A stretch of 64,000 nucleotides of DNA. Source: Kordiimonas aquimaris. GTDB taxonomy: Bacteria; Pseudomonadota; Alphaproteobacteria; Sphingomonadales; Kordiimonadaceae. The translations under genes and the position numbers were made by a program. The stretch is taken from contig NZ_JAOBPO010000003.1 in assembly GCF_025574485.1 (NCBI RefSeq), forward strand, positions 39,867 to 103,866. Reading direction: 5' to 3'. This document shows positions 7,313-28,960 of the stretch, piece by piece. How positions within the stretch are numbered: position 1 is the stretch's first letter; each line of letters starts with the position of its first letter. The notes below the pieces were generated by a model. It was not told the DNA's origin. It worked only from the letters and a program-made list of their open reading frames with translations, and did no database searches.

Positions 7313-7381
7313 TTGTTGCGTAAATACATCGCCGTTTTTGAGCTAGAGGCCAAATAACTTACTGTAAGAGTATAGAAAATA

Positions 7382-8599: not shown

Positions 8600-8614
8600 G
8601 GTCGAAAAACTAAT

Positions 8615-9616: not shown

Positions 9617-9620
9617 CGTT

Positions 9621-9779: not shown

Positions 9780-9935
9780 GCTAGTCATAATATTTAAAGT
9801 AATGTAATCATTGATTGATTAATGCAACACTTTGGCATTAAAGTGATAATTTAATGTAGGAATAACGAGATATTGTCATTTTTTCGTGTTATGTAATGCC
9901 TGATTGGGTGGTCTTGCGGGCGAAATGAGTGATTA
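9780..9935. other. Intergenic region before the export operon, with a 6-bp palindrome
   Basis: This AT-rich 156-base gap separates the galE block from the export genes. It contains the inverted repeat CACTTT-ggcatt-AAAGTG at 9828-9845, a possible operator for the downstream genes. No sigma-54 -24/-12 element with correct GG/GC spacing was found, although many XrtA systems use PrsK/PrsR and sigma-54. No confident sigma-70 promoter could be assigned. Confidence 0.35.
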
Positions 9936-10577: not shown

Positions 10578-10622
10578 ACTAACGATACTTTTGTCAGTGC
10601 TTAGCTGACGAGGAGACAAACG

Positions 10623-12245: not shown

Positions 12246-12282
12246 AGGCTTCGATTGTGTTGGTTATTGAGTAGTAAATCGT

Positions 12283-13437: not shown

Positions 13438-13516
13438 GTTTTTGCTTTATCGCTCAAAAAAACTGCCTATTTTAGGCAATTCTGCACGCCATGGGGGCAA
13501 GGGACATATTAGTCTT

Positions 13517-14980
13517 ATGTGTTTTCACCGGCAAATTCCCATTATAATAAGCGCTTTGTTTAGCGCTTTTTTTTCGGTGCAAGCTGTACAAGCACAGCAT
13601 ATCTACATTGACCCAAGAGCTGAAACTCGCTTTACCGTAACGGATAATGCAAACCTGACTACAAGCGATAGATTAACGGATGGTGTTTTTAATAATGCTA
13701 TTGGGGTTAATGCTCGTATTGATGGCGCTAGATTACGCACGTCAATAGATTATTCCCTTGATCATTTTTACTTCCTTTCTGATGGCACTGATGACTACCG
13801 GCAAAATCTTTTTGGTACTTTGGATGCTGAAGTATGGAAGGATCATCTCGTACTGAATGGGCGGGCTAGTTTAAGGCAGCAATTTTTGGATCAACGAGGA
13901 AGTTTGTCTGGTAGTGCAGCGAATAGAACTACAAACAGGCGCTTGGTGCAGACGTACACTGGTACGGCTTCTTTTCGTGCCGGTTTGCGCGATTTTGCCG
14001 ATGCTCGTATTACATATCGTTATGGTATTCAAAAAAGCCCGGCAGATGATCTGACTGACACAACATTGCCGATTAATTTTTCTGACTCAACATCGCACGA
14101 AATAAACGCTTCCATAGACTCTGGTGATCGCTTTAATAATTTTCAGTGGCGTTTATTTGCAAATTCATCCCGCGTTTTCAGAAACCTAGATGTAAATGAT
14201 TTTAGAAATGAACGAGCGGGCGGCGAGGTAACACTCAAGTTTAATCGTTACTTCCAACTTATTGGTAACATTAACTATTCCAGAAATGACTTTCAGTCGG
14301 ATGTCTTATCGGAAGATGGTTTTGGCTGGGAAGCCGGTTTTCGCTGGACGCCTGGCCGTAAGCTAGATTTGACTTTTACAGCAGGTAAAGAAGGTAATCG
14401 TGAAGTTTATTACGCCTCGTTGCAGCACTTCTTCACAATAAGGCTTAGTTTTACAGGTAGTTACACTGATACAATTACGGCAAATACGATTGTCGGCAAT
14501 GATGGATTAAACTCGTTAAGGTTCGACGAAGAATTCGGCATTGTTAACAATGAGACACTTCCTATTGATGAAACTGACCCTAATTTCTCATTTTCCGATC
14601 TAGACTTTCGGCGTCGTGCATTTGTTGGAACATTTAATCTTCAACAAAAAAGAACACGGCACTTTTTGACGGGAAATTACGAATTGCGCACATTTGACAA
14701 TAACACTGGTACGGGACGCGCTTGGGGGGTAACATACGGTGTGAATAGGAAAATTAACGATAAGGCTGAATTATCTGCTCGACTTAGCTACCGTCAAAGT
14801 TTATTTGAAGATGGTGTACGTGTGGACAATTTTATTGTAGGTAACGTTACTTGGTCGAAAAGACTGTCAAAACGGTTTAGGTTAGCTCTTTCATTTGATC
14901 ACTCTCAGAGGCAATCAAATAGTGACGGAGGTGATTTAATGGAAAACGCAGCGACGTTATATCTAAGAGGGACTTTTTAA
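13517..14980 (+). CDS. Outer-membrane beta-barrel protein of the XrtA/PEP-CTERM locus
   Basis: From ATG 13517 the 487-residue product begins with a signal peptide (hydrophobic IIISALFSAFFSVQAVQA, cleavage near VQA-Q). It is then rich in alternating aromatic/polar beta-strand segments such as FRWTPGRKLDLTFTAG, FTIRLSFTGSYTDTITA and GNYELRTFDNN. It ends in Phe (LYLRGTF), the usual last residue of outer-membrane barrels. It matches by position and style the exosortase-locus barrel family TIGR03016. The same frame is open further up to 13406, but that would overlap the kinase gene and place the signal peptide far from the N-terminus. It may be the outer-membrane conduit or anchor for the polysaccharide machinery. 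Confidence 0.85.
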   Translation: MCFHRQIPIIISALFSAFFSVQAVQAQHIYIDPRAETRFTVTDNANLTTSDRLTDGVFNNAIGVNARIDGARLRTSIDYSLDHFYFLSDGTDDYRQNLFGTLDAEVWKDHLVLNGRASLRQQFLDQRGSLSGSAANRTTNRRLVQTYTGTASFRAGLRDFADARITYRYGIQKSPADDLTDTTLPINFSDSTSHEINASIDSGDRFNNFQWRLFANSSRVFRNLDVNDFRNERAGGEVTLKFNRYFQLIGNINYSRNDFQSDVLSEDGFGWEAGFRWTPGRKLDLTFTAGKEGNREVYYASLQHFFTIRLSFTGSYTDTITANTIVGNDGLNSLRFDEEFGIVNNETLPIDETDPNFSFSDLDFRRRAFVGTFNLQQKRTRHFLTGNYELRTFDNNTGTGRAWGVTYGVNRKINDKAELSARLSYRQSLFEDGVRVDNFIVGNVTWSKRLSKRFRLALSFDHSQRQSNSDGGDLMENAATLYLRGTF

Positions 14981-14986
14981 TTTCCG

Positions 14987-16024
14987 ATGTATGAAAGTTT
15001 TTACAATCTACAAGGTCGACCTTTCCAGCTGACGCCGGACCCCAGGTTCTACTTTAGTTCTAAGACACACAAGAAAGCTATGGCTTACTTGACCTATGGC
15101 TTGAACCAAGGTGAAGGTTTTATCATTGTTACTGGTGATATTGGTACTGGCAAAACTACTCTGGTAAGGCATTTGTTCGATACGCTAGACCGTAACGAAT
15201 TCATTGCTGCAATGATTGTGAGCACGCAATTAAGCGCGGAAGATTTGTTACGTAGTGTTGTTGCGGCATTTGGCTTAGATGCTCAAGCTGAAGACAAAGG
15301 CGAGTTACTAGCGCGGCTTGAAAGACATTTACGTGAGCAATTCGCGCGGGGCCGCAGGGCGCTGTTGGTTGTGGATGAAGCACAAAACCTTTCCAGCGCA
15401 GCACTTGAAGAAATGCGTATGCTTTCTAATTTTCAGGAAGGCGATAAAGCGCTTGTTCAAAGTTTCCTTGTAGGACAACCTGAATTTAGAGAGCGTATTT
15501 TTGAAGCACCCGAGCTTGAGCAGTTACGTCAAAGGGTAATTGCCACTCACCACCTCGAGCCAATGGAACAAGAAGAGCTAGCTGATTATATTCAACACCG
15601 CCTAAGCATGGTTGGTTGGGATAACGACCCTTGTTTCACCGCTGATGCAGTGGAAGCAATCTATAATCAAAGTGCTGGTGTTCCTAGACGTCTAAACACA
15701 CTGTGCTCTCGTGTGTTATTATACGGTGCATTAGAAGAAATTCACACAATTGACAGTGACGTTATATCTTCTGTTGTTGCCGATATGGCAAGCGATCAAC
15801 GCCAAGTGACGGCCACGTCTTCTGCTGTAAAATCTCAACCTGTGAACAAGCAAAACGACGCGACTATCCCTCTTGAAGCTGCTGAATTTAAGAAAGCTAA
15901 TGAGGACATAGAAGGGCGTATGTCGCAGATTGAAAACATGATGAAGTCGCAAGATCAAACGTTACAACAATTGACCCAACTAATGGCACAGCTTGCTAGC
16001 GGCGGTAATAAGAACGACGAGTAG
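14987..16024 (+). CDS. ExeA-like AAA ATPase of the XrtA/PEP-CTERM locus
   Basis: The 345-residue protein starts MYESFYNLQGRPFQLTPDP, the hallmark of the GspA/ExeA-like AAA family found in exosortase loci (TIGR03015). Walker A is GDIGTGKTTL (about residues 50-59) and Walker B is LLVVDEAQNL. Sensor and C-terminal lid regions include SAGVPRRLNTLC. A coiled-coil tail around residues 295-335 (IEGRMSQIENMMKSQDQTL) probably mediates oligomerisation. Relatives power assembly of envelope secretion structures; its exact partner here is unknown. It begins six bases after the barrel gene and ends three bases before the deacetylase gene. Confidence 0.92.
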   Translation: MYESFYNLQGRPFQLTPDPRFYFSSKTHKKAMAYLTYGLNQGEGFIIVTGDIGTGKTTLVRHLFDTLDRNEFIAAMIVSTQLSAEDLLRSVVAAFGLDAQAEDKGELLARLERHLREQFARGRRALLVVDEAQNLSSAALEEMRMLSNFQEGDKALVQSFLVGQPEFRERIFEAPELEQLRQRVIATHHLEPMEQEELADYIQHRLSMVGWDNDPCFTADAVEAIYNQSAGVPRRLNTLCSRVLLYGALEEIHTIDSDVISSVVADMASDQRQVTATSSAVKSQPVNKQNDATIPLEAAEFKKANEDIEGRMSQIENMMKSQDQTLQQLTQLMAQLASGGNKNDE

Positions 16025-16027
16025 CAC

Positions 16028-16948
16028 ATGAAAAATGCTGTTGAGGCTGCACAATTTAACCCTGTAGCTAAACAGGCCTCGATTGGCATTGATGAAATAC
16101 AGCATGTTTTTTCTGTTGATGTTGAAGAATGGTTTCAAGTTGGGGCGTTCGAGAACTCTCTTTCGCGTTCTGACTGGTCTGACCTTGAAAGCCGGGTTGT
16201 AATTCAAACAGAGAAAATTCTTTCATTGCTTGAACGTACAAATGTTAAAGCAACATTTTTCTGCCTTGGATGGGTTGCGGAACGTGAGCCTGAACTCATA
16301 AAAAAAATTAGTGATCATGGCCATGAAGTGGCCTGTCACGGTATGGATCATAGGCGTCTTTATCAAATGGACGCAGATACTTTCTATCAAGACATCCTCC
16401 ATTCTAAAGCCTTGCTTGAAAAAGCTTCTGGACAAACGGTGTATGGATACCGCGCACCCAGTTTTTCCATGTCAGAAAATACTTGGGATTACTACCCGCG
16501 CATGATTGAAGCTGGCTTTAAATATTCATCCAGCGTTTTTCCTGGCAAAACAGACCATTACGGTATGCCGTCCGCACCACGATTACCATTCTATCCACTA
16601 AGCGATGAAAGCATAATAGAAGTACCGATGACTGTATCTCGTTTTGGTTCATTATCACTACCTGCTTCAGGTGGCGGGTACTTCCGGTTATTACCAAGTT
16701 TTCTATCGAAAGCTTTAATGACGAGAGCTTTCACGCAAACAAATGGTAGTACAATATTTTATATGCATCCGTGGGAAGTTGACCCAGAACAGCCACGCGT
16801 TACCGATGCACCATTTTTATCGAAGTTTCGTCATTATAGTCGCCAAAATGTAATGGAAGAAAAGCTTGAAGTGATCCTTAAAAGCCAACCTTTTACAAGA
16901 ATGGATCATATGCTGAATGCTCAGTATCGCATAGAGATGGGCAATTGA
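16028..16948 (+). CDS. Polysaccharide deacetylase (XrtA-associated, DUF3473 type)
   Basis: The 306-residue protein is a NodB-fold carbohydrate esterase. VFSVDVEEWFQV supplies the catalytic/metal aspartates, and HGHEVACHGMDHR carries the metal-binding histidines. YGYRAPSFSMSENTWDYYP is the conserved Arg-containing motif, and FYMHPWEVDPEQPR the C-terminal catalytic His region. The DUF3473 extension is typical of the PEP-CTERM-locus subfamily TIGR03006. No signal peptide is evident, as in related proteins, so its compartment is uncertain. It likely removes acetyl groups from the polysaccharide or its precursors. Its TGA shares its last base with the next gene's ATG. Confidence 0.93.
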   Translation: MKNAVEAAQFNPVAKQASIGIDEIQHVFSVDVEEWFQVGAFENSLSRSDWSDLESRVVIQTEKILSLLERTNVKATFFCLGWVAEREPELIKKISDHGHEVACHGMDHRRLYQMDADTFYQDILHSKALLEKASGQTVYGYRAPSFSMSENTWDYYPRMIEAGFKYSSSVFPGKTDHYGMPSAPRLPFYPLSDESIIEVPMTVSRFGSLSLPASGGGYFRLLPSFLSKALMTRAFTQTNGSTIFYMHPWEVDPEQPRVTDAPFLSKFRHYSRQNVMEEKLEVILKSQPFTRMDHMLNAQYRIEMGN

Positions 16949-17988
16949 TGTCTGTGCGTATTGTCATATTAGAGGAACAAAGTTTCGCCGCCTGGGATGA
17001 TTTTTTAATTCACCAGAAGGGCTCAACATTTTGCCACCGTTCTGGATGGAAAACGGTCATTGAGCAAGGTGCAAGACAGGCGTGCCCTTATTTAATTGCT
17101 TATCAAGGAACTGAAGTCGTTGGTATTCTGCCGTTATCGATTAAAAAGCATTTCTTGTTTGGTAAGGCTTTAATTTCAAACATGTTTTGTGTATACGGCG
17201 GCGCAGTTGCGCTTGATGATACTATTGCAGAGAGCCTCTACAACGCTGCATGGGATTTAGCCAATAAAGAAAATATACCGGTATTTGAAAACAGAACACG
17301 CATTTCCAAACATCAACAGCATGATGAATGGATCGGAAAGTCAGAATCAGCGACTTTTATAAGAGATTTGGCAGATGATGAAGAACAGCAGCTGCTCGAT
17401 ATTCCAAGAAAACAACGCGCTGTAATAAGAAAAAGTTTGAAACGAGAAATGGTTACAGATTGGAACGGTGACTTTTCTGTTTTCTATGACTTATATGCTC
17501 AAAGCGTATTGACTTTAGGTACACCTGTTTTTCCAAAGCGCCTCTTTATAGCCTTGCGTGATGTTTTTGCAGATGATGTAGAAATTCAAATTACTAGAAA
17601 TAACACAGGCGAGGCTGTTGCCAGTTTGATGAGCTTCTATTACTGCGACACGGTTATGCCTTATTATGCTGGTGGGAATGCGCTGGCAAGACCACTAGCT
17701 GCACATGACTATATGTATTTTCAATTGATGATAAAAGCTCGGGAACGAGGCGTAACCCGATTTGATTTTGGTCGTAGCAAGATTGATAGCGGCCCTTATA
17801 AATTTAAAAAGAACTGGGGCTTTGAGCCGACAGAAATGCAATATGAATGGCGATTACGTGAAGGCATCACCATTCCTGAAATGTCTCAACATAAGGGGGT
17901 ATATGGCCAATTGGCAAAGTGGTGGAAAAAATTACCACTACCTGTATCAAAAATAGCTGGGCCGATAGTATCCCGGCATTTAGGATAA
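16948..17988 (+). CDS. FemAB-like acyl/aminoacyl transferase (XrtA-associated)
   Basis: The 346-residue protein has two GNAT-like halves. The second carries LARPLAAHDYMYFQLMIKAR and RFDFGRSKIDSGPYKFKKNW, the conserved FemAB/GNAT signature of PEP-CTERM-locus members (TIGR03019). Family relatives attach amino acids or acyl groups to cell-wall precursors; the substrate here is probably a polysaccharide or precursor modification, by inference. ATG 16948 overlaps the preceding stop (TGATG), which argues for translational coupling and against the TTG three bases upstream. Confidence 0.88.
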   Translation: MSVRIVILEEQSFAAWDDFLIHQKGSTFCHRSGWKTVIEQGARQACPYLIAYQGTEVVGILPLSIKKHFLFGKALISNMFCVYGGAVALDDTIAESLYNAAWDLANKENIPVFENRTRISKHQQHDEWIGKSESATFIRDLADDEEQQLLDIPRKQRAVIRKSLKREMVTDWNGDFSVFYDLYAQSVLTLGTPVFPKRLFIALRDVFADDVEIQITRNNTGEAVASLMSFYYCDTVMPYYAGGNALARPLAAHDYMYFQLMIKARERGVTRFDFGRSKIDSGPYKFKKNWGFEPTEMQYEWRLREGITIPEMSQHKGVYGQLAKWWKKLPLPVSKIAGPIVSRHLG

Positions 17989-17994
17989 GGTTTA

Positions 17995-19233
17995 ATGGCG
18001 CGTATTCTGTTTTTGTCACATCGTATTCCGTACCCGCCTAACAAAGGTGACAAGATACGCTCGTGGAATTTTCTGAAACACTTGTTGTGTAAAAACGAAG
18101 TGCATTTAGGTTTTTTCATTGATGACAAAGCAGATGTGAAACATATCTCTTTTCTACAAGAGCAGTGTGCAAGTGTGATGTATGCTTTTGCCTCACCCTT
18201 GAAGCAGAAGCTATCAGCTATAAAAGGCTTTGTAACCGACAAGTCACTCACCGAATGTGCTTATCCATCAAAAAAAATAAGGCAGGATATAAAGTCTCTT
18301 ATTTTCACTAAAAAGTTCGATCTTATATTTGTCTATTCCGCAGCACCTTTTGCTTGGTTGCCTTCTCAGGTTGATGATGTACCAATCATTACTGATTTGG
18401 TAGATGTCGATTCTGCAAAATGGGAAGCATATGCAGCAGGCGCATCCATACCAATACGCTGGATTTACAATAGAGAGGCAAAATACCTCTCAAGGTTTGA
18501 GGCGTTTGTTGCCTCGAAAAGTAAGGCATGTTCTCTTGTCAGCAATGATGAAGCCGCATTGTTTAAAAAAAGAATGCCCCTCAACTTACAGAAGACTACA
18601 CAAGTTTATGGCATAACAAATGGTGTAGATTGTGCTGCTTTTAACCCGCGCATTCAAAATGAAACTGGTGCAAAGCAAAATATATCAACTCGCCTTATAT
18701 TCACGGGTGCGATGGACTATCGTCCAAATATTGAAGCTGTTAAATGGTTTACGAAACACGTATTGCCGAAGCTCTTTGATCATGACAGTTCTATTGAATT
18801 CATAATTGCTGGCGCGCCTGTTGCACCTGAGGTGAAGGAGTTGTCTCATCATGCTTATATTAATGTGCTGGGGCGCGTCGATAATATGGCTGATGAAATT
18901 AATTCTGCAGATATTGTTGTTGCTCCGCTTCAAACGGCAAGAGGTATACAGAACAAGGTTCTTGAAGGTATGGCTATGGCTAAGCCAGTGATAGCTACCT
19001 CCGCCGCCAATGAAGGTATCAATGCGCCTGATAACGAAGCTATCATTATTGCGGATACAGCTGAGGCATATGTTGCGGCGATCAATAACTTACTGGCTGA
19101 CCCAAAACAGTCTGCCGTAATAGGGAAAAATGCACGAAAATTTGTTGAGCAGCATTTCAGTTGGTCTGCAAGTTGGTCTGCACTCGATAATATGATCAAC
19201 TCTGCTAGAACCCAGGAAGAAAATACAGCATGA
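17995..19233 (+). CDS. GT4 glycosyltransferase of the XrtA locus (TIGR03087-type sugar transferase)
   Basis: The 412-residue protein begins ARILFLSHRIPYPPNKGDKI, characteristic of the exosortase-locus sugar transferase family. It contains DLVDVDSAKWEAYA in the N-domain, FTGAMDYRPNIEAVKWF at the domain junction, and VVAPLQTARGIQNKVLEGMAMAKPVIA as the donor-binding region. GT-B fold retention-type transfer to the lipid-linked repeat unit is inferred. Its end overlaps the exosortase gene by four bases (ATGA), suggesting coupled translation. Confidence 0.92.
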   Translation: MARILFLSHRIPYPPNKGDKIRSWNFLKHLLCKNEVHLGFFIDDKADVKHISFLQEQCASVMYAFASPLKQKLSAIKGFVTDKSLTECAYPSKKIRQDIKSLIFTKKFDLIFVYSAAPFAWLPSQVDDVPIITDLVDVDSAKWEAYAAGASIPIRWIYNREAKYLSRFEAFVASKSKACSLVSNDEAALFKKRMPLNLQKTTQVYGITNGVDCAAFNPRIQNETGAKQNISTRLIFTGAMDYRPNIEAVKWFTKHVLPKLFDHDSSIEFIIAGAPVAPEVKELSHHAYINVLGRVDNMADEINSADIVVAPLQTARGIQNKVLEGMAMAKPVIATSAANEGINAPDNEAIIIADTAEAYVAAINNLLADPKQSAVIGKNARKFVEQHFSWSASWSALDNMINSARTQEENTA

Positions 19234-20759
19234 CTGATCGCAGTAAAATAGCTTTTGCAATCATGCTGTTTGGTTTGGCCATAACTTTCTATGCTTGGTG
19301 GTCCACCGTTGTCCACTTAGTCGACCTCGTTCAAACCGTTGATGTTTTTGCACATGGTCAAATCGTACCGCTAGTCAGTATTGTTTTAATATGGTCGCGT
19401 AGAGAAATGTTAAGGGCTATAAAGCCCAGCTTCTCGATCATGGGTCTTGTTGTTCTTACTGGCGCAGTAGCGATATGGCTGATGGGAGAATTGCTTGATT
19501 CAGCTTTATTTGCGCATTTGGGCCTTATTACTGCGATACAGGGGATTGTTCTTTTCTCCTTTGGAACAAAGATTTATCGGGCACTTTTATTCCCGATGGG
19601 ATTTCTCTATCTAACGATCCCGTTTGGCTATGCGCTTGTTACCCATCTACAGCACCTGACCGCCAATATGGTCATTTTAGTATTGGATATTATAGGTGCA
19701 GATTTTACTGCAGAAGGTGTTCTAATTGAATTGCCAAGCGGTCTTTATGAAGTTGCACAGGCTTGTGCTGGTATACGGTTTCTGTTTACGAGTGTTGTAA
19801 CAAGTATATTACTTGCAAACTTGGTCTTTGAGAGCTGGAAACGCCGTGTAATGATACTGTGTGTTGGTGTTATCTTACCTATTGTTGCCAACATTATTCG
19901 CGTTTTGTCTATTCTGGCCATTGCTGAAATGACAGATCAAAGTTTCGCAAAAGATGTTGACCATTTGATCTATGGCTGGGTGTTTTTATCAATAGTATTA
20001 TTAGCGCTAATAAGCTTTGCCTACAGGGTGTCTGATATTGATATTGCCGCGGGTAGAATTGAGCAAAAACAAGAACAACACGAGCTTGATCATCATAAAT
20101 TCAGTATCTTTGGCGTAAGTTTGTTCTTCCTACCATTGTTTGCTAGCTATGTCTTTCCAAGCCAATTTGAGCCTGTATACCAAGAAGGTCAGCAAGAAAA
20201 TACCGCGCTTTATCAGGTTGCTCCTAATGGATATCGCCTTATCAATAGACCTGCAAAAGTTTCAACGCCTAAATTCCTGAACGCAGATGTGGAACGACAG
20301 AGTGTGTTACGTGAAAACAGTGTCGTATTTAGTGTTTACGCCAGCACCTACAACGCATTAGGGCCTGGTCGGCGTTTGTATCAATCTGGCAATAGCCTTA
20401 CGAGCCATGATTGGGAAGAATTGACAGGATTAAGGCAAAACCATGCTGAAATATGTGGTCAACATGTTGAAGAACGCATTTTCCGCCGTGGGGAGATGCG
20501 CATTATGGTGTGGTCAATGTATCGGCTCAATGAAGCAGCAATAGCTAGTAGTTTAGAAGAAAAACTATTCTCTGCTTATGCCCGTTTTAAAGAAATGCCT
20601 GCTGTAGGAGAAGCCGTGGTTTTAACAGCATCAGTCGCTGATGATCTAGAGGTTGTGCGTAAGACTTTTTCTGGTTTTATTAAAAAAAATCTACATAAAA
20701 ACGGCTTGTGGAGTGATGCGCAAACAAAGGTAAAAGGAACCAGATTATGTGCGGAATAA
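19230..20759 (+). CDS. xrtA: Exosortase A fused to EpsI domain
   Basis: The 509-residue protein has an N-terminal exosortase with about eight membrane helices (residues 1-275) and a C-terminal periplasmic EpsI-type domain (about 300-500). The catalytic triad is visible: Cys179 in YEVAQACAGIRFLF, Arg224 in NIIRVLSILA and His245 in DHLIYGWVF. Exosortases are the predicted transpeptidases that cleave proteins bearing a C-terminal PEP-CTERM signal and anchor or release them. EpsI accompanies them, either separately or fused as here. No protein with a PEP-CTERM tail is complete in this window, so substrates are elsewhere. The gene overlaps both neighbours, by four bases upstream and 13 bases downstream. 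Confidence 0.95.
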   Translation: MTDRSKIAFAIMLFGLAITFYAWWSTVVHLVDLVQTVDVFAHGQIVPLVSIVLIWSRREMLRAIKPSFSIMGLVVLTGAVAIWLMGELLDSALFAHLGLITAIQGIVLFSFGTKIYRALLFPMGFLYLTIPFGYALVTHLQHLTANMVILVLDIIGADFTAEGVLIELPSGLYEVAQACAGIRFLFTSVVTSILLANLVFESWKRRVMILCVGVILPIVANIIRVLSILAIAEMTDQSFAKDVDHLIYGWVFLSIVLLALISFAYRVSDIDIAAGRIEQKQEQHELDHHKFSIFGVSLFFLPLFASYVFPSQFEPVYQEGQQENTALYQVAPNGYRLINRPAKVSTPKFLNADVERQSVLRENSVVFSVYASTYNALGPGRRLYQSGNSLTSHDWEELTGLRQNHAEICGQHVEERIFRRGEMRIMVWSMYRLNEAAIASSLEEKLFSAYARFKEMPAVGEAVVLTASVADDLEVVRKTFSGFIKKNLHKNGLWSDAQTKVKGTRLCAE

Positions 20760-22645
20760 CCGGCTGGATGACGCATGATGGTTCTTTGATTGAAGAACGT
20801 TTGCTAAAACATATGACTAATCAAATTGCGCACCGTGGGCCTGACGGAGACGGCTATTTTAACGGTGGTGACGTTGGATTGGGCCACCGTAGACTTAGCA
20901 TAATTGATCTTGATGGCGGTAAGCAACCTATGTATTGCGACCAAAAAGAGGTTGTTCTCTCTTACAACGGCGAAATATATAATTATCAAACGCTAAGACA
21001 AGAGCTTGAAGGTCTTGGTCATCAATTCAAAACCTCATCTGATACCGAAGTTGTTCTATGTAGCTATAAGCAGTGGGGCGAGGCATGTGTTGAACGTTTT
21101 CGCGGCATGTTTGCGTTTGCCATTTGGGATGGCGGTAAACAAAGCTTACTTTTGGCGCGAGATCGCGTTGGCATAAAACCGCTGCATTATAGTTTTTTAC
21201 CGTCAGGGGATTTTATATTTGCGTCTGAATTAAAGGCCATTCTCGCTCATGATAATGTGCCTAGAGTGTTGCGGCTGGATGCGCTGGAAGATTATTTAAC
21301 GCTTGGCTATGTGCCTGATCCCAAGACCATTCTTGAACATGTACATAAATTACCACCTGCATCTACGATGGTTCTCGTCAAAGGCTCGAAACAACCTCAA
21401 ATCCGAACCTACTGGACACCTGGCTTCAATGAACATGTTCAAGCCCTGTCTGTGCAGGAAGATTTATTGCCACACCTAGAGGAAGCCGTGCGTATGCGCA
21501 TGATCGCTGATGTACCTCTGGGTGCTTTTCTTTCTGGCGGTGTAGACTCGAGTGCGGTTGTTGGCCTAATGGCAAAAAACAGCACGAAAAAAGTAGAAAC
21601 ATGTGCCATTGGGTTTGATGATCCAGATTATGATGAAAGTGGTCATGCCCAAGTTGTAGCTGATCACTTTAATACCTCACATCGATTCCGCCTTGTATCA
21701 GCTACTGATAGTGAGCTTATTGATAAAATGGCTGACGTTTTTGACGAACCCTTTGCCGATGCATCAGCTTTACCAACATACCGGGTGTGTGCATTAGCAC
21801 GTGAAAAAGTAACTGTTGCTTTATCAGGCGACGGAGGAGATGAGCTTTTCGCTGGATATAGACGGCATAAATTTCATATGGCAGAAGAGACCATGCGCTC
21901 TAAGCTGCCATTGGCAATTCGGCAGCCTGTCTTCGGCACACTCGGCTCATTATATCCCAAGCTTGATTGGGCACCTCAATTTTTACGTGCAAAAACTACT
22001 TTTGAGGCATTATCACGCACTTCGGCACAAGCTTACTGTCACAGCGTTAGTCGCACATCAGATAGAGAACGAACGAAGCTGCATAGCTCGCGTATGACTA
22101 AGCTTTTGAATGGCTATCATCCACATGAAAGGTTTGAAGAATTAGCGGATGAAGTAAAAGGGCAAGATGCATTAACAACTATCCAATATATTGATTTCAA
22201 GACCTACTTGCCGGGCGACATTCTAACAAAAGTTGACAGAACAAGCATGGCCAATAGCCTTGAGGTGCGTGTCCCAATCCTTGACCACAAGTTTGTTGAG
22301 TGGGGATTTCGCGTTCCACCGAAGAACCGAATTGTTGAGGGCAGTGGTAAAGCAATTTTCAAGGGTGCTTTACGTGGTTTCCTGCCAGAGCACATCATCG
22401 ACCGGAAAAAACGAGGCTTTGTAGCGCCAACGGTTAATTGGATGCGAGATGAACTTTCTAATGATGTTCGCGCGCTGGCAAAAAGTAAAATTTTTACAGA
22501 TAGCGGGTTGTTTAATGTCAAAACAATTAAACGATTGGCCGAAGAACATATAAGCGGCGTTAGAGATCACCATACCACGTTATGGTCGTTAATCATGCTA
22601 GAGCGATCGCTAACAAAACTGAACGTTCAAATACCAACTGCTTGA
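20747..22645 (+). CDS. Asparagine-synthase-like amidotransferase of the XrtA locus
   Basis: The 632-residue protein starts MCGITGWM, so Cys2 is the glutaminase nucleophile. The class II amidotransferase domain (HRGPDGDG, LGHRRLSIIDL, SYNGEIYN) fills about 1-200. The synthetase domain has the PPi-loop FLSGGVDSSAVVGLMA and later LSGDGGDELFAGYRRH. This is the TIGR03108 subfamily tied to exosortase A loci. It probably amidates a sugar or precursor acid, rather than making free asparagine, by family inference. Translation overlaps the exosortase gene by 13 bases. It is the last gene of the locus and converges on phoB with 22 bases between and no obvious terminator. Confidence 0.92.
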   Translation: MCGITGWMTHDGSLIEERLLKHMTNQIAHRGPDGDGYFNGGDVGLGHRRLSIIDLDGGKQPMYCDQKEVVLSYNGEIYNYQTLRQELEGLGHQFKTSSDTEVVLCSYKQWGEACVERFRGMFAFAIWDGGKQSLLLARDRVGIKPLHYSFLPSGDFIFASELKAILAHDNVPRVLRLDALEDYLTLGYVPDPKTILEHVHKLPPASTMVLVKGSKQPQIRTYWTPGFNEHVQALSVQEDLLPHLEEAVRMRMIADVPLGAFLSGGVDSSAVVGLMAKNSTKKVETCAIGFDDPDYDESGHAQVVADHFNTSHRFRLVSATDSELIDKMADVFDEPFADASALPTYRVCALAREKVTVALSGDGGDELFAGYRRHKFHMAEETMRSKLPLAIRQPVFGTLGSLYPKLDWAPQFLRAKTTFEALSRTSAQAYCHSVSRTSDRERTKLHSSRMTKLLNGYHPHERFEELADEVKGQDALTTIQYIDFKTYLPGDILTKVDRTSMANSLEVRVPILDHKFVEWGFRVPPKNRIVEGSGKAIFKGALRGFLPEHIIDRKKRGFVAPTVNWMRDELSNDVRALAKSKIFTDSGLFNVKTIKRLAEEHISGVRDHHTTLWSLIMLERSLTKLNVQIPTA

Positions 22646-22667
22646 TAATTAGTTGGCAAAACAAACA

Positions 22668-23357
22668 CTATCTGTGCTTATCGAGTGCATAGCCTGCTGA
22701 ACGCACAGTTCTTATATAGTCTTTACCGTCGCCTTCATTCATCGCTTTTCTCAGCCTTCTAATGTGAACATCGACAGTGCGTGGTTCAACATAGACATCG
22801 TGTCCCCAAACAGAATCAAGCAATTGCTCACGTGAAAATACGCGGCCCGGATTTTCCATAAAATGACGTAACAAACGGTACTCGGTTGGACCCAAGTGGA
22901 TAAGTGTATCGTTACGCATCACACGATGCGACACATTATCAAGCGATATATCTTCAAATCGGAGCTCGTGTCCAGCAAGGGCAGGGCGGACGCGCCTTAA
23001 AACGGCTTGAATACGGGCTATAAGTTCTTTGGGTGAAAATGGTTTTGTAACATAATCATCAGCGCCGATTTCAAGTCCGCGTACACGATCAGGTTCGTCA
23101 GCGCGAGCCGTAAGCATTATAATTGGGACATTTGCCGTTTCTTCGTTGCGGCGCAGCTGTCTGCATATTTCCAAACCTGACAGATTAGGTAGCATCCAAT
23201 CAAGAAGAATAACGTCTGGCGTATCTTGAGCTGCCAGATAAAGGCCTTCTTCACCATCAGCAACCGATTCGACTTTATAGTCGGCGCGTTCAAGGTTGTA
23301 ACGCACAAGTTCAGTAATATTTAAGTCGTCTTCGATTAGTAGAACGCGGGTTTTCAC
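22668..23357 (-). CDS. phoB: PhoB-type phosphate regulon response regulator
   Basis: The 229-residue protein has a receiver domain with acidic pocket E9-D10-D11, phosphoacceptor Asp53 (VILLDWMLPN), the Thr in MLTARA, and the Lys in YVTKPFSP. The OmpR/PhoB winged helix follows (LGPTEYRLLRHFMENPGRVF, DVHIRRLRKAM, RTVRSAGYAL). DWMLP and the C-terminal GYAL are typical of PhoB proper. It is downstream of phoR on the same strand, with a 157-base gap. No pst, phoU or clear Pho box is present in the window, so regulon membership of the neighbours cannot be shown. Confidence 0.9.
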   Translation of the reverse strand: MKTRVLLIEDDLNITELVRYNLERADYKVESVADGEEGLYLAAQDTPDVILLDWMLPNLSGLEICRQLRRNEETANVPIIMLTARADEPDRVRGLEIGADDYVTKPFSPKELIARIQAVLRRVRPALAGHELRFEDISLDNVSHRVMRNDTLIHLGPTEYRLLRHFMENPGRVFSREQLLDSVWGHDVYVEPRTVDVHIRRLRKAMNEGDGKDYIRTVRSAGYALDKHR

Positions 23358-23514
23358 TGCGTTTTCCTCTCAAGTGATGCATGTAAGTCGTGTATCAATT
23401 AAGTAAGAGTTACTGAGTTAATGTTACAGATTGATGGCACTTTAGTAGCATGGAATCATCAGATAAACTTAAAATGTAACAATTATCATACTCTTAATTT
23501 TCAGCTACAAAGCC

Positions 23515-24783
23515 TTAAGGCCGCGTCAGCCGGAAAGTAAATGTCGTGCCTACACCCATTTTGCTTTTAATTTTCAATTGGCTTTCGTGTCTCAATAAAA
23601 TGTGTTTAACGATAGCAAGTCCAAGCCCGGTCCCGCCCATTTTACGTGATCGAGCGTCATCAACGCGGTAAAAACGCTCTGTTAGTCGCGAAAGATGTTC
23701 TTGTCCTATACCAGGGCCCTTGTCTGATACGCTAATTTTAATAAATCGCGCATCTGTTGCTATAGTTGCTTTTACACTCACTACGGTGTCGCGGTCAGCG
23801 TATTTTGCAGCGTTTACTATCAAATTGAGCATCACTTGCATTATTTGATCAGCATCGGCGATAGCTTCATTAGCGTTTTTCTCAACGCTAACATCGAAGG
23901 TAATACCGCGGCTTTCCGCCGTTTGAGTTGCGGAAGTAACAACACCTTCAATAAGGTTTTTGATATCTACTTTAGTGTCTGGTGTTGAGTGCCGGGACAT
24001 CTCGATTTTAGATAACGACAATAAATCATCAATAAGCCGCACCATTCGTCCTGCTTCGGTTTGCATAATCGTTAAAAACCGTTCACGGGCAGGGGGATCG
24101 TCTTTTGCAGGGCCTTGAAGCGTTTCTACAAAGCCTATGAGTGATGATAAAGGAGTTCTGAGTTCGTGACTGGCATTAGCAACAAAATCAACACGCATCT
24201 GTTCCGTTTGCAGCAGGCTGGTTACTTCATAGAAGAAAGCCATGGCTTGTGTAGGGATAGTATGTTTTCCGGTTCCTGGAACACGGGTGATAGTCACATC
24301 AAAGCTTCGATCTTTTTCATCTCTGTGCCTTACAACACCAGCGTTTTTCTTGTTTTTAACAAAGATAGACTTAAGTGCTTTAGCAAACTTTGAATGCCTC
24401 AAGTAAAGTGTAATATCATCATCTACAATCTTTTCGCCAAGCAATTCTCTTGCCGAAGCATTAGCAAACGAAATACGGTGATCTTCTGCAATAATTACGA
24501 TTGGCAGCGGTATACCATCAAGTGCATTTGCTCGAACCGAGCGAACGCCAGTATCACGCATATCACGCTTTTTTTGCAGCGCATTCCGGCGTTTATCAAG
24601 CGCATTATATCGGCGCTCTATTTCAAGACGAATAAGTAACCCGCCAACAATTAATAAAATGAATAATCCGGCAATAGTGTCGATTAAATCAAAAGCCCAG
24701 GATAATGTGAGCACAATCAACAAAACTACGGTTATGGTTCTTTCATTAAGAATAGACTTATCGTCTTGATTCTTCTTTGCCAT
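23515..24783 (-). CDS. phoR: PhoR-type sensor histidine kinase
   Basis: The 422-residue kinase has two N-terminal membrane helices (about 15-50) with almost no periplasmic loop, as in PhoR. A PAS domain follows (about 88-190; GIPLPIVIIAEDHRISFANA). The HisKA H-box FVANASHELRTPLSSLIGF places the phosphorylated His at residue 206. The ATPase domain shows the N box LIVNAAKYA, the G1 box VSDKGPGIG and the G2 box GTGLGLAIVKH. Known PhoR proteins phosphorylate PhoB at low phosphate. It starts at ATG 24783, divergent from the Tat-like protein gene, across a 194-base gap. Confidence 0.9.
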   Translation of the reverse strand: MAKKNQDDKSILNERTITVVLLIVLTLSWAFDLIDTIAGLFILLIVGGLLIRLEIERRYNALDKRRNALQKKRDMRDTGVRSVRANALDGIPLPIVIIAEDHRISFANASARELLGEKIVDDDITLYLRHSKFAKALKSIFVKNKKNAGVVRHRDEKDRSFDVTITRVPGTGKHTIPTQAMAFFYEVTSLLQTEQMRVDFVANASHELRTPLSSLIGFVETLQGPAKDDPPARERFLTIMQTEAGRMVRLIDDLLSLSKIEMSRHSTPDTKVDIKNLIEGVVTSATQTAESRGITFDVSVEKNANEAIADADQIMQVMLNLIVNAAKYADRDTVVSVKATIATDARFIKISVSDKGPGIGQEHLSRLTERFYRVDDARSRKMGGTGLGLAIVKHILLRHESQLKIKSKMGVGTTFTFRLTRP

Positions 24784-24977
24784 GCTTACATTTGTTCCAT
24801 TTACTAAAACACAGGTCTTTTACTGTCATACTTGCGTTAACCAATTAAAAACAGTTTTCTTTCATTTTTATGTCAAAGATTGATATTGATTTGATTGAAA
24901 TAACTCTGGTCAACTCATACTCTTTTAATGTATTAAGATTATGTTCTGGTTGGTGGTCTGCCTGAATATAGGCGCCA

Positions 24978-25832
24978 GTGCATGAAATTATTCAGTTTAT
25001 AATGGATGAATCTGTGACAGATCTACCAGAAAACAGCACCGTAAAAAGTGTAGGAAAGTCAGCAAACGTTGATCATAGCGCTGCTCGCCGTAACCTCTTG
25101 AAACTTGGTGTGGCCGGCATGCCAATGGTGTTAACGCTTAAAGCGTCTGCACGTCAATTGGCTATCTCTCAGTTAAATTGTGTAATCGTTTTGCCTAGTC
25201 GCATGCGTATCCTTGTTGATTCGGACGGAAATGCCTGGTCTGGGACAAGAAATATTAGCTATGATGCGTCAAAAGGCGGTTATAAATTATCTGATATTCA
25301 GAAATTTAAGGATCATCGTAACACGCGAGAATTTACGGGCGGTTTGCCCAATTCTCTCACACCCTCTGCTTGTTCATCATATTCATATGGTGGTGGCCAA
25401 GATGATTGTGATGATGATAGTGGTGGCAAAGGCGATGACGATGATTATGACTACTATTATGATGCGGACTTTGAAAACGCTTCCAGCGATTTAGATTTGT
25501 TGATGCAGGCCTCTTCTAATACATATGCTGATGGTATTGAAGCTGGTTACAGCTCTAAAGATGACGATGATGATGACGATTGTGAAGAACCCACTCATAT
25601 AGATTGTGGATATTATTTCACGACACTACGACGCAACAGGGAAATACGGCCTGGTGATTTCATTGATGGCTCTGTATGGGATTTAAGAGGCGACGATGGT
25701 TTGTTTGTTGCTCTGTCACTGCAATATGCATGCGGTGTATCCGAGACCGGTTGGCCGGGAATTTCATGTATTGTGTCAATTCTTACATATCTGAGGCAAA
25801 ATGGCGGTAGTAACGCTTGTCCTCCGTATTAA
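24978..25832 (+). CDS. Tat-like signal protein of unknown function with Asp-rich tracts, first gene of HPr-rel-A cassette
   Basis: I do not recognise a characterised family for this 284-residue product. Residues 35-60 look like a twin-arginine signal: ARRNLLKLG, then a hydrophobic stretch ending near LKASA. Two runs of aspartate (about 142-162 and 194-204) flank a Ser/Asn-rich region. Eight cysteines (68, 132, 144, 202, 210, 252, 264, 281) could form disulfides if exported. The start is uncertain: GTG 24978 has an AGG five bases upstream, while in-frame ATG 25002 lacks a ribosome-binding site. It lies 20 bases before the PqqD-like gene, so it is a plausible substrate or product of that cassette (inference). 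Confidence 0.75.
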   Translation: MHEIIQFIMDESVTDLPENSTVKSVGKSANVDHSAARRNLLKLGVAGMPMVLTLKASARQLAISQLNCVIVLPSRMRILVDSDGNAWSGTRNISYDASKGGYKLSDIQKFKDHRNTREFTGGLPNSLTPSACSSYSYGGGQDDCDDDSGGKGDDDDYDYYYDADFENASSDLDLLMQASSNTYADGIEAGYSSKDDDDDDDCEEPTHIDCGYYFTTLRRNREIRPGDFIDGSVWDLRGDDGLFVALSLQYACGVSETGWPGISCIVSILTYLRQNGGSNACPPY

Positions 25833-25852
25833 TATCTTTCTGAGTAATTTCC

Positions 25853-26155
25853 ATGGCAGCTGGTCCTATCACTGACGACATGAAATGGCGTTCCAGTAGC
25901 GATGGCTACATCGCTACTGAGTTTGATGACACTTATCTAGTATTTGTAAAAGCGTCTGCTGAAACGCATTTTTTGAATTTTTTGTCGTTTGGGATTGTTA
26001 CAGAAACTGAATCAGTTGCACAAACTGCTACAGAATTAGCTATGAACTTACGCAGAAGGTTTGAACTGACGGATGAAGAGTTAACGCAGGAGCTAGTCTC
26101 TTTAACCTTGTCAGAACTTGATGATACCGGCTTGATTTGGCCCGAGACTGTATAG
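25853..26155 (+). CDS. PqqD-family protein of the HPr-rel-A system
   Basis: The 100-residue protein resembles the small winged-helix PqqD fold. SSSDGYIATEFDDTYLVFV forms the N-terminal strands. LNFLSFGIVTETESVAQTATELAMNLRRRF would be the linker and helices, and LVSLTLSELDDTGLIWP the final helix-turn. PqqD relatives act as RiPP recognition elements that bind leader peptides for modifying enzymes. The match here is to the divergent group found beside HprK-related kinase A (TIGR04353 type), not to true PqqD. It sits between the Tat-like protein and the kinase, with one base separating it from the kinase ATG. The call rests mainly on context plus weak motif likeness. Confidence 0.7.
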   Translation: MAAGPITDDMKWRSSSDGYIATEFDDTYLVFVKASAETHFLNFLSFGIVTETESVAQTATELAMNLRRRFELTDEELTQELVSLTLSELDDTGLIWPETV

Positions 26156-26156
26156 A

Positions 26157-27098
26157 ATGAGTACAGTAACACGCGTATCAGACCTTAGTAGACGCGAAAT
26201 ACGTTCTTCGTTACGTGAAGGTTCTTTACTTTTACACTTGGGTCCATTTGCCCAGTTAATATCGGGCTCAAGCGATCCACTAATCGATTTTCTTCAGGAT
26301 ACATACCGTGATTGTCAGGTAGAGCTTTTCCCAAGTGACGTTACCGATGTTCATTTGAATTTACGTGCACCTAACATTTTACGTAAGTTTTTTCGGCCAC
26401 AAGTTGTTCCTGATCCAGGTTTTGAAGTGCCTGCAGTGCCTCTGCCGATTGAAATGGCACCTTTGGCATTTGAAATGGGTTTAAACCTGTCAGTAGCGCT
26501 TAAATGCTGTCGCTTTGTAACCATTCATGCAGGTGTAGTGGCGGATAAAGATGGCGCTATTCTTATGAGCGCTGAATCCGGTTCAGGTAAAAGTACACTA
26601 ACGGCAGCGCTTCTTGAACGAGGGTACCGTCTATTTTCAGATGAATTCGCTCTTGTTGGCCTTGGCGATGCAGTGCTGCAGCCGTATCCAAGACCAATTT
26701 CGCTTAAAGAAGAAACAATTCCAATTGTCCGCGAACTTGCCGGTGATGAATGGATTAGTCCAATCGTTAAAGGTTCACCAAAAGGCGATATTGCATACAG
26801 ACGAGCAAGGCGTAGTGATATCGATCAATCTCATAAGCAGGCAAAAGCTAAGCTGATATTATTTCCCGAATTCGAGCCCGGTATGCGGCCATATAAACGC
26901 AGATTAAATACTGCAGAGGCGATTTTACGTTTAATACCGGCTTCTACCAATTTCGGCTTGCTCGGCGAGCAAGCTTATCTTGCTATCACACGCCTTTTTG
27001 ATGACGCGGTTGCTTATGAATTAAGCTATGGCTCAACGGAACAAAGTTTGAGCTTGATTGATGAAGCGTTGCAGGAAAGAGATGATCATGCAGCGTAA
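26157..27098 (+). CDS. HprK-related kinase A
   Basis: The 313-residue protein carries a P-loop in LMSAESGSGKSTLTAALLE (A139-S146). It is preceded by VTIHAGVVADKDGA and followed by LFSDEFALVG with Asp162, the order seen in the HPr kinase/phosphatase catalytic core. It lacks the normal HprK N-terminal domain and is not near ptsH, so it fits the HprK-related kinase A group (TIGR04352). Kinases of this general kind phosphorylate peptides in some lasso-peptide clusters; the target here is unknown. It starts one base after the PqqD-like stop, and its 3' end overlaps the nucleotidyltransferase start. Confidence 0.85.
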   Translation: MSTVTRVSDLSRREIRSSLREGSLLLHLGPFAQLISGSSDPLIDFLQDTYRDCQVELFPSDVTDVHLNLRAPNILRKFFRPQVVPDPGFEVPAVPLPIEMAPLAFEMGLNLSVALKCCRFVTIHAGVVADKDGAILMSAESGSGKSTLTAALLERGYRLFSDEFALVGLGDAVLQPYPRPISLKEETIPIVRELAGDEWISPIVKGSPKGDIAYRRARRSDIDQSHKQAKAKLILFPEFEPGMRPYKRRLNTAEAILRLIPASTNFGLLGEQAYLAITRLFDDAVAYELSYGSTEQSLSLIDEALQERDDHAA

Positions 27099-28134
27099 AG
27101 CATTGAAGCAGATCGTTGGCCTAAAGCCTTTGCCAGAAAAAGTTTTGAAACGCATCAAGTTAATGATTTTTGCTGATGCTCATCATGTACTTGGGCAAAT
27201 GGCTGCTGCTTTGACAGGTGCACACGAAGGCAAGATAAATGACGTGTTTGACAATGCCTTACTACGCACGGCCCATGATCACCGCATGTTACATTTCGAA
27301 ATGAACCGATTAGAGCGGGCGCTTGAGGGGACAGAAATAACACCAATTTTACTCAAGGGCGCCGCGTATGTCGCACGGGATTTGAAAGCTGCACAAGGTA
27401 GGCGCGTTAGTGATATTGATATTCTTGTGAGAGAAGAAGAGCTTGATCAAGTCGAAAAGCTTTTGATGCAAGCAGGCTGGAAAGCCGACCAAGAAACTGA
27501 CAACGAGTATGATCAAGAATACTACCGCCAATGGATGCATGAATTGCCGCCTATGCGCCATGGTAAACGTGGTACAATCATTGACGTGCACCACCTTTTG
27601 CTGCCTAGAACGGCACGATACAAAATCGGTATTGATCAAATGATTGACGGCGCAAGAACAATAGAAGCTAGCGCGCTAAAGACATTTTGTCCGGCCGATG
27701 TATTTATACATTCAGCTATCCACGCTTTTGCAGATGGCGCCTTTGATAACCCGGTTCGGGGGTTCATTGAGCATTATTATCTATTTCAGGATTTAAATGA
27801 AAGTGACCGCAAAGATTTGTGTGTGAGAGCCGAGCAGGTTGGTGCAGAAAAGCCAGTAGGCCTTGCGGTATGGTGTGTCGGTTTCTTATTTTCTGACGAG
27901 AACGCTCAAAAAATGGCTAAAAACATGAAAAAGCCAATGTTGTTTTGGCTTTTAAGGTGGGCATTGATTTCAAAAGCCATGGATGGGTTAACTTCTCCTC
28001 TTGCAAAAGCGCTGCTTTATATCCGTAGCCATTACCTTCGCATGCCAATGCGGTTACTTGTACCGCATCTTACACGCAAAGCTATTCAATGGCGCCCAAT
28101 GTCACGCAAGCCGGTAGATCTGCCATTGCCGTAA
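27082..28134 (+). CDS. Nucleotidyltransferase family protein (PF14907-like) of the HPr-rel-A cassette
   Basis: The 350-residue product contains ITPILLKGAAYVARDL followed by GRRVSDIDILVREEELDQ, the R-x(n)-D-I-D-x-L signature of the NTP_transf_5 group. Further on, TIIDVHHLL supplies a third likely acidic/metal residue. Members are predicted to transfer nucleotides to unknown acceptors and occur in some lasso-peptide clusters and in HPr-rel-A cassettes. AGGA at 27073-27076 supports ATG 27082 or ATG 27088; the frame is open further upstream to 27058, which seems less likely. It overlaps the kinase gene by 17 bases and converges into the phosphatase gene by 53 bases. Confidence 0.85.
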   Translation: MIMQRKALKQIVGLKPLPEKVLKRIKLMIFADAHHVLGQMAAALTGAHEGKINDVFDNALLRTAHDHRMLHFEMNRLERALEGTEITPILLKGAAYVARDLKAAQGRRVSDIDILVREEELDQVEKLLMQAGWKADQETDNEYDQEYYRQWMHELPPMRHGKRGTIIDVHHLLLPRTARYKIGIDQMIDGARTIEASALKTFCPADVFIHSAIHAFADGAFDNPVRGFIEHYYLFQDLNESDRKDLCVRAEQVGAEKPVGLAVWCVGFLFSDENAQKMAKNMKKPMLFWLLRWALISKAMDGLTSPLAKALLYIRSHYLRMPMRLLVPHLTRKAIQWRPMSRKPVDLPLP

Positions 28135-28756
28135 TGGTCAGATCTGCATTTAATTCATCATGTGGAATAGCTGAATATCCAAAAGTAACCAAAATAGATG
28201 GAATATTTGCAGCGCGCGCCCCGTCAATATCTGCAATACTATCGCCAATCATTATAGCCGGACCTGTACCTGGTAAGGCGTTTATTGCGCTGAGAATAGG
28301 GCGAGGGTCAGGCTTCTTATATGGAAGACTGTCACCGCCAATAATACATTCAAAATATTGAGTCATATTGAGGTCATGCAGCAATGATTTTGCCAAATGG
28401 TGAGGTTTGTTGGTGCAAATTGCTAACCCAAATCCATCAGATTTAAGCGCTTGCAATACATTTATCGTGTCGGGAAATGGACGCGAGTTAACAGCAACAT
28501 TATCTGCATAGTATTTTAAGAAACTTTGTAAGAGTTCAGCGGTATCTTGCCGGTTGACACCACCTGTTGCTTTTAATCCAAGCTCTATAAGCTTCATAGC
28601 GCCAAAGCCTACCATGTGCCTCACTTGCTCTAGCGTGACTGGTGCACGGTTAATTTCATGTAACACGTGGTTTGTTGCTGCGAGAAGGTCCGGTGCCGTG
28701 TCAACGAGCGTACCGTCTAGGTCAAATATAATTTTTTTGGCAAATATTGGTGTCAT
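28082..28756 (-). CDS. gph: Phosphoglycolate-phosphatase-like HAD hydrolase
   Basis: From ATG 28756 the 224-residue protein begins with HAD motif I in KKIIFDLDGTLVDTAPDLL. ICTNKPHHLA is motif II, GGDSLPYKKPDPRPI carries the Lys of motif III, and MIGDSIADIDGARAA is motif IV. Gph hydrolyses 2-phosphoglycolate; HAD substrate range is loose, so the exact substrate is inference. The AGGAG ribosome-binding site just before ATG 28756 decides the start over the longer frame to 28843. Its 3' end overlaps the nucleotidyltransferase 3' end on the other strand by 53 bases. Confidence 0.88.
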   Translation of the reverse strand: MTPIFAKKIIFDLDGTLVDTAPDLLAATNHVLHEINRAPVTLEQVRHMVGFGAMKLIELGLKATGGVNRQDTAELLQSFLKYYADNVAVNSRPFPDTINVLQALKSDGFGLAICTNKPHHLAKSLLHDLNMTQYFECIIGGDSLPYKKPDPRPILSAINALPGTGPAIMIGDSIADIDGARAANIPSILVTFGYSAIPHDELNADLTITAMADLPACVTLGAIE

Positions 28757-28960
28757 TGTTACTCCTGTAGTTGCGCTCAAATAACAGGATTTCATAATGC
28801 ACAGCAACACATATGATTTGCTATATGGATTTCGCCAGTTCATTCCTATATTAAGACTTGCGCATGGATTGTAGATCAGTTTATGTGCACATGATGTTGC
28901 GTAGAAGTGTGATAATTTGAAATAATAGTTTAAAGCCGCGTTAGTGAAAAGGTAAGAGTG

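Follow-up and report, generated by a model that had tools for sequence, protein, structure and literature searches.

In lasso peptide clusters the kinase PadeK phosphorylates the C-terminal serine of the precursor, and PsmN, annotated as a nucleotidyltransferase, accounts for the hexoses that the phosphorylated residue carries, perhaps via nucleotidylation; the lasso kinases carry the residues His-Lys-Asp-Asp (from the available part of PMC9266682). Here we describe a cassette of four genes on one strand at 25002-28134 of a 64,000-nucleotide stretch of DNA (the window, meaning throughout that whole stretch) from a Kordiimonas-like alphaproteobacterium, Kordiimonas aquimaris. The genes encode an exported-looking protein, called SUB below, a PqqD-like recognition protein, an HprK-related kinase and a nucleotidyltransferase. 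SUB is very probably the client of the other three. The reading that we favour, as somewhat more probable than not, is that the cassette phosphorylates and tailors a dedicated exported protein of the matrix under guidance by the PqqD-like protein, as sequence conservation and the lasso analogy suggest.

Among named systems the cassette corresponds to HPr-rel-A of NCBIfam: its kinase and PqqD-like protein pass the curated cut-offs and a PF14907 neighbour, a feature of that system, is present. No NCBIfam model exists for SUB. The open-licence literature yielded no paper on HPr-rel-A, TIGR04352/TIGR04353 or the HprK-related kinase (NCBIfam curator comments may already note part of this), and none joining an exosortase with HPr kinase. 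PqqD together with HPr kinase led to lasso peptide papers, and a search for the recognition element of ribosomally synthesised and post-translationally modified peptides (RiPPs) together with twin-arginine gave nothing related, judged by listing. With lasso tailoring (PadeK/ThcoK, PsmN), as far as the available source text goes, the cassette shares PqqD-like recognition, an HprK-like kinase, an annotated nucleotidyltransferase and a conserved Ser near the C-terminus of the partner. It differs in that the partner resembles a twin-arginine translocation (Tat) substrate of 118-298 amino acids among those listed, in that the Ser is not terminal, and in that its kinase has His-Lys-Asp-Glu where the lasso enzymes have His-Lys-Asp-Asp. 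There is no lasso cyclase in the cassette, the nearest AsnB-like gene (TIGR03108) reaching 264 bits on the cyclase model NF033535 against a cut-off of 525, and no B2 transglutaminase-like leader peptidase among the eight proteins at 20747-28843 to which that scan was confined. The sequence-only reading, made before any database search, had likewise seen lasso-type tailoring parts lacking both cyclase and leader protease, and its comparison fits as an analogy, given the kinase and hexose chemistry reported in the part of PMC9266682 available. Exosortase A with its PEP-CTERM proteins shares with the cassette the kind of exopolysaccharide locus, a dedicated class of exported protein and, at one locus (L135, below), the position of the exosortase gene. 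The cassette has neither a transmembrane sorting enzyme nor a PEP-CTERM tail, its kinase and nucleotidyltransferase are predicted to be cytosolic, and it has one or two partners, whereas eight exosortase-bearing genomes have 5-38 PEP-CTERM sites each.

The four adjacent genes are present as the sequence-only reading had placed them, its gaps of 20 bases and 1 base and its 17-base overlap are exact, and its assignment of the last three proteins held when TIGR04353, TIGR04352 and PF14907 were run, all scoring above cut-off. SUB may start at ATG 25002 or at GTG 24978 (24978-25832); codons ahead of the ATG are not conserved among homologues. The features of the cassette are as follows.

25002-25832, + strand: SUB, exported-looking partner, 276 amino acids from the ATG, without a Pfam or NCBIfam match
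25086-25151, + strand: Tat-like leader RRNLLKLGVAGMPMVLTLKASA, R29-R30 to A50, from the leader model
25179-25181, + strand: Cys60, directly after the leader, invariant in 28 aligned closer homologues
25389-25601, + strand: variable Asp/Gly-rich stretch, limits approximate, low model confidence
25755-25793, + strand: C-terminal motif PGISCIVSILTYL, with S255-C256-x-x-S259 at 25764-25778, in the final helix
25853-26155, + strand: PqqD-like recognition protein, TIGR04353 46 bits (cut-off 35)
26157-27098, + strand: HprK-related kinase A, TIGR04352 228.4 bits (cut-off 200)
27082-28134, + strand: nucleotidyltransferase, PF14907 143.5 bits (cut-off 31.2)

Relatives of the locus were collected by searching for the kinase with TIGR04352, which scored above cut-off in 38 of 59 relatives and in 61 of 398 genomes of the phylum; wider stretches were taken for most kinase matches, and 80 loci from named records, the best 80 of a longer list, were added. 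Homologous cassettes, far from usually lacking an upstream protein, carry a Tat-like partner ahead of the kinase gene at 145 of 163 loci (89 of type I and 49 of type II, both defined below, and 7 with the leader alone). These 163 loci exclude the seven named loci nearest to the window (L149-L155), L070, which is a second weak kinase locus, and short copies; they include duplicates (e.g. L157 = L040, L192 = L041, L202 = L050), and 159 different sequences stand in the kinase tree. Loci from other families of the window's order have no phmmer match to SUB, yet show the same architecture. A pattern combining a Tat-like N-terminus with a C-terminal [ST]CxxS was found ahead of the kinase at 70 of 90 loci, whereas 19 of the 5648 remaining frames of these loci fit it. 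The first 40 loci served to build the pattern and gave 39 matches; the remaining 50, some viewed before the pattern was fixed, gave 31. A few matches are junk frames beside the true gene (e.g. L033, L048). Many of the 20 loci missed have, on inspection, type II or divergent Tat-like partners. A hidden Markov model (HMM) of 44 leaders from the window's order had upstream matches at 54 of 123 other loci and none elsewhere among the 16014 frames of those loci; at least three of these 54 are records also used in training, and one training leader (L033) is spurious. When iterated, the model matched at 73 of the 123, and its two matches elsewhere are one divergent SUB in two overlapping loci.

The 18 loci without an upstream partner divide as follows. 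At seven (L109, L111, L112, L133, L096, L120, L068) SUB lies elsewhere or is divergent, at L189 a type II match falls just beyond the distance limit used, and at L176 and L195 the stretch begins at the kinase, at a contig edge. L123 has a Tat-like frame upstream when judged by eye; in its genome, G390, the type I profile (A1) found no match. No upstream partner was assigned at L214, L215 and five Sphingopyxis-like loci (L171, L208, L217, L219, L220). Eight of the 18 lie in searched genomes, and seven of these eight (G080, G126, G138, G181, G191, G320, G057) carry SUB elsewhere or in divergent form, the eighth being G390. The separated SUB gene adjoins a PqqD-like gene in G320, G126, G181 and G080, with the kinase elsewhere; in G191 the PqqD-like gene and SUB are divergent and lie beside the kinase, and no PqqD-like gene was found beside SUB in G057 and G138. 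Genome-wide, A1 matched 39 of 398 genomes, all kinase-positive, and none of the 337 kinase-negative ones, a silence that covers A1-like members only. A second SUB profile matched 10 of the 22 kinase-positive genomes that A1 had missed, and within one family it matched 11 of 11 kinase-positive and none of 7 kinase-negative genomes (Fisher 3e-5). In the Sphingopyxis-like clade (the five loci above and L068) PqqD-like, kinase and nucleotidyltransferase genes stand together with no SUB found adjoining; in G057, the genome of L068, SUB adjoins a phoR-like gene about 163 kb from the kinase locus.

Read from its sequence, the SUB N-terminus consists of RR-x-LLK, a short hydrophobic stretch and ASA, and TatC was found in all six genomes searched. 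An alignment of 32 SUB proteins keeps the Tat-like leader and the C-terminal segment around [ST]CxxS and varies in the middle, and in 26 diverse type I members R30, C256 and S259 are the sole invariant positions. Conservation thus makes S259 a candidate phosphoacceptor, whose chances we place just short of even. The sequence-only reading had described a Tat-like, Asp-rich Cys protein; the leader stands, and in the window SUB has 13% Asp and 8 Cys, but Asp-richness is incidental in the family. As a partner-defining trait it was ruled out, with Asp at 2-19% across 73 listed SUB sequences (one of them, the second frame of L033, spurious) and the stretch itself variable and poorly ordered in the model. 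Exactly two Cys occur in 17 of 18 SUB proteins shorter than 150 amino acids (one spurious frame excluded); in the sequences inspected, one Cys follows the leader and the other belongs to the motif, a layout that suggests a disulphide formed after export. The AlphaFold2 (AF2) model of SUB has a mean predicted local distance difference test score (pLDDT) of 71.9, is confident at about 60-100 and 200-270, and ends in a helix, 254-266, that starts at the motif; a structure search with it found nothing at E 0.001 or below. The 26 diverse type I proteins fall outside every Pfam and NCBIfam family, a single weak Tat-signal match aside, and as far as those models go SUB is an undescribed family. The PEP-CTERM tail model TIGR02595 found five sites in the window's genome and none in SUB. 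Two SUB genes of different sequence occur in one cassette at L036, L042, L059 and L063.

The partners fall into two types. Type I, with the C-terminal [ST]CxxS, occurs in Kordiimonadales, Sphingomonadales, a Magnetococcales record (L187) and a Methylococcaceae record (L197); the label is a pattern match and may include some false calls. Type II, mainly from beta- and gammaproteobacteria, has the leader, usually SGNxS and often an SPGYWKNH-like segment, and none of seven tested had a Pfam family above cut-off. These shared segments were observed among L160-L227, loci that are mainly beta- and gammaproteobacterial. A type II profile recovered held-out members 11 of 11, both ways. Trained on all 22 sequences, picked by eye upstream of the kinase, it matched 49 of the 74 loci that bear no type I label, those 22 among them. 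As a universal site [ST]CxxS was ruled out: 25 other partners aligned, mostly beta/gamma and with L163 left out, do not end in the motif, and L222 alone among them has SCWTS, further inside the sequence.

Partner type largely follows kinase clade, going by the sequence labels. Clade 1, from the window's order and other Alphaproteobacteria, has 65 type I and no type II among 76 rows; clade 2 has 24 type I and one type II call among 33; clade 3 has 26 type II and no type I among 51; the remaining rows of all three are unlabelled. Mapped on the kinase tree the partner label needs 30 changes, against 63.7 in shuffles, with labels that are rough (47 'none') and are superseded by the later count of 145 in 163.

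The kinase His (26526-26528), Walker A Lys and Asp-Glu (26640-26645) are invariant in 87 aligned kinases. It is a distant relative of HprK, with profile matches in the PDB to 1ko7, 2qmh and 1jb1 at E about 1e-4, and it falls below the cut-offs of the HPr kinase/phosphorylase families TIGR00679 (16.2 bits, cut-off 240) and PF07475 (17.7 bits, cut-off 33.3). In the nucleotidyltransferase the D88-x-D90 pair at 27412-27420 is invariant in 28 aligned sequences. Its alignment found no PDB sequence at E 1 or better, and its AF2 model (pLDDT 94.2) matched MenT1 (Foldseek E 3.2e-5, Z 13.1, root-mean-square deviation 2.8 over 177) and ANT(2'') (Z 10.8, 3.7 over 163), with FKRP, a ribitol-phosphate transferase, at Z 6.6, below the trusted level. 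Judged from the predicted structure, the protein has an MNT-type NTase core with a D-x-D pair. Kinase and nucleotidyltransferase are naturally fused in a 708-amino-acid open frame at L138:7962-10088 (= L093:1438-3564), from a genome (G238) that is 93% complete with 8% contamination.

Upstream of the cassette lies an exopolysaccharide locus of the XrtA type.

3029-22645, + strand: XrtA/PEP-CTERM exopolysaccharide locus, with galE and a glycosyltransferase, from NCBIfam models
19230-20759, + strand: exosortase A (XrtA), 251.7 bits
20747-22645, + strand: amidotransferase TIGR03108, 883.7 bits

The models matched in it are TIGR03013, 02917, 03027, 03007, 03018, 03016, 03015, 03006, 03019, 03087, XrtA and 03108, exosortase A standing between TIGR03087 and TIGR03108. 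The locus includes FemAB-like and amidotransferase genes beside exosortase A. TIGR03019, a marker of such loci, occurs in 54 of 61 kinase-positive genomes and 13 of 337 kinase-negative ones, or by genus in 28 of 31 against 10 of 181, and among 80 long loci, counting that of the window, 39 have one or more XrtA-locus homologues within the stretch examined. On balance, SUB probably has a role in XrtA-type exopolysaccharide, to go by these gene associations.

At E 1e-40, 29 of the 61 kinase-positive genomes gave exosortase A or a relative; of the remaining 32, three matched a general exosortase model, one of them above cut-off. The other 29 genomes, from 10 families, gave no exosortase at E 0.001; 15 of them reach 90% completeness or more with contamination of 5% or less, and the absence is weaker for the other 14. 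PEP-CTERM tails were missing from 11 of 12 exosortase-less genomes searched, the twelfth having a single match at E 0.078. Among the 67 genomes with TIGR03019, 26 have the kinase only, 28 kinase and exosortase, 12 the exosortase only and one neither (E 1e-40). XrtA-type exopolysaccharide genes persist without a detectable exosortase at L135 and at other loci of the 29 genomes. At L135 (G064) the cassette stands amid XrtA-type genes between TIGR03088 and TIGR03108, with no exosortase there and with a chain-length gene that scores below cut-off; of 12 long loci from these exosortase-less genomes, 10 have, in the stretch examined, a homologue of TIGR03087 or of TIGR03108, and six have both, one on each side, so that the cassette stands between the genes that border exosortase A in the window.

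Put together, the favoured reading would run as follows. The PqqD-like protein would bind SUB, to which it is tightly paired genetically, as PqqD and the lasso B1 proteins bind their own substrates by analogy. Phosphorylation by the kinase would follow in the cytoplasm, on a hydroxyl residue of SUB that in type I members is most probably the invariant Ser within [ST]CxxS. To judge from PsmN, the nucleotidyltransferase may next attach a nucleotide or a sugar on this phosphate or close to it. Folded and tailored, SUB is probably exported by Tat, because an RR leader and TatC are both present. Tat exports folded proteins, which would fit cytosolic tailoring. Given the association of the loci, exported SUB may join the XrtA-type exopolysaccharide matrix, and in some lineages the cassette may replace the exosortase/PEP-CTERM branch. 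Overexpression of PepA, a PEP-CTERM protein, in an Aquincola rpoN1 mutant lowered released and raised bound exopolysaccharide, according to the available part of PMC9850573, and by analogy this effect might model what SUB does. A bolder version, which we regard as unlikely, is that the two enzymes, acting one after the other as in the activation of sugars or alcohols, turn the SUB Ser into a nucleotide- or sugar-phosphate group that would couple SUB covalently to XrtA-type exopolysaccharide independently of exosortase, having replaced exosortase A in Magnetococcales-like lineages; the exosortase-less lineages are so called because L187, from Magnetococcales, groups with them in the kinase tree. 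The sequence-only reading had a cassette that recognises, phosphorylates or nucleotidylates a larger secreted protein; the dedicated, exported-looking partner has been borne out at 145 of 163 loci and in seven of eight genomes where it is separated, and the chemistry we still infer.

A named but unexplained cassette thereby gains a concrete partner, a candidate site of modification and a place in a pathway. Three things go beyond the sequence-only reading, namely the C-terminal motif and its conservation, the division of the partners into two types and the tie to XrtA-type loci. If the favoured reading is true, parts known from tailoring small lasso peptides would act on full-size exported proteins, and there would be a second route besides exosortase to supply an XrtA-type locus with a dedicated protein. 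Cultured Kordiimonas, Sphingomonas or Massilia would allow a test of why such loci carry genes for handling proteins.

Several observations weigh against this reading. S259 lies 17 residues before the end of SUB, unlike the terminal Ser of paeninodin, and type II partners have no C-terminal [ST]CxxS, which is thus not a universal site. The split between types is not clean, since four loci with the type I label (L040, L134, L139 and L157) are matched by the type II profile as well, and support for the third kinase clade is 81, below the starred level. The PqqD-like profile reached the lasso B1 protein TfuB1 at E 0.076 only, and A1 missed 22 of the 61 kinase-positive genomes. No genome or locus showed more than two SUB genes, which does not resemble a general sorting system. 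The exopolysaccharide association is corrected for kinship by counting genera only, and 41 of the 80 long loci have no XrtA-locus gene in the stretch examined.

The alternative that fares best, which we nevertheless consider improbable, is that the substrate of the kinase and the nucleotidyltransferase is a small molecule or a glycan from the exopolysaccharide pathway, SUB being only a matrix protein inherited alongside. A kinase followed by a nucleotidyltransferase is the usual logic of sugar activation, the cassette co-occurs with the XrtA-type locus, and the likeness of the nucleotidyltransferase fold to ANT(2''), a small-molecule adenylyltransferase, points the same way. However, of the seven genomes that do not have the kinase directly downstream, five keep a PqqD-like gene beside SUB; SUB type can largely be predicted from the kinase clade; and SUB is absent together with the kinase though the XrtA locus stays, five of the seven kinase-negative genomes in the family searched with the second SUB profile having TIGR03019 and XrtA.

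We hold it to be quite unlikely that SUB is a RiPP-like precursor whose C-terminal part is phosphorylated, then cleaved and set free as a small modified peptide, with the nearby AsnB-like amidotransferase perhaps closing a ring. PqqD-like, HprK-like kinase and nucleotidyltransferase genes do occur in lasso clusters (PMC9266682, PMC7533575, in the parts available), the TIGR03108 protein of the window has the 264 bits on NF033535 given above, and in L135 a TIGR03108 gene adjoins the cassette. That score lies far below the 525 required, though, and the same protein reaches 883.7 bits on TIGR03108; moreover, no leader peptidase or transporter is among the eight proteins annotated at 20747-28843, and SUB has 118-298 amino acids with its C-terminus in an ordered region of the window model.

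A reversible, HPr-style phosphorylation of SUB that switches exopolysaccharide production is very unlikely, for although the kinase is a distant HprK relative and phoB and a phoR-like gene lie by the cassette in the window, the kinase gains only 16.2 of the 240 bits required on TIGR00679, SUB appears to be exported, and the phoR-like neighbour, frequent in loci of the window's order, was found by the same search in none from other classes.

The genes flanking the cassette lie on the opposite strand, and it stands between the phoR-like and the phosphoglycolate phosphatase genes.

22668-23357, - strand: phoB, in the flank
23515-24783, - strand: phoR-like gene, 314.1 bits on TIGR02966 (cut-off 334.2)
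28082-28843, - strand: phosphoglycolate phosphatase gene, the other frequent flank in the window's order

The phoB/phoR-like pair and the phosphoglycolate phosphatase gene are not thought to be part of the system. Among the named records listed, the kinases nearest to that of the window come from Kordiimonas and from alphaproteobacterial metagenome-assembled genomes.

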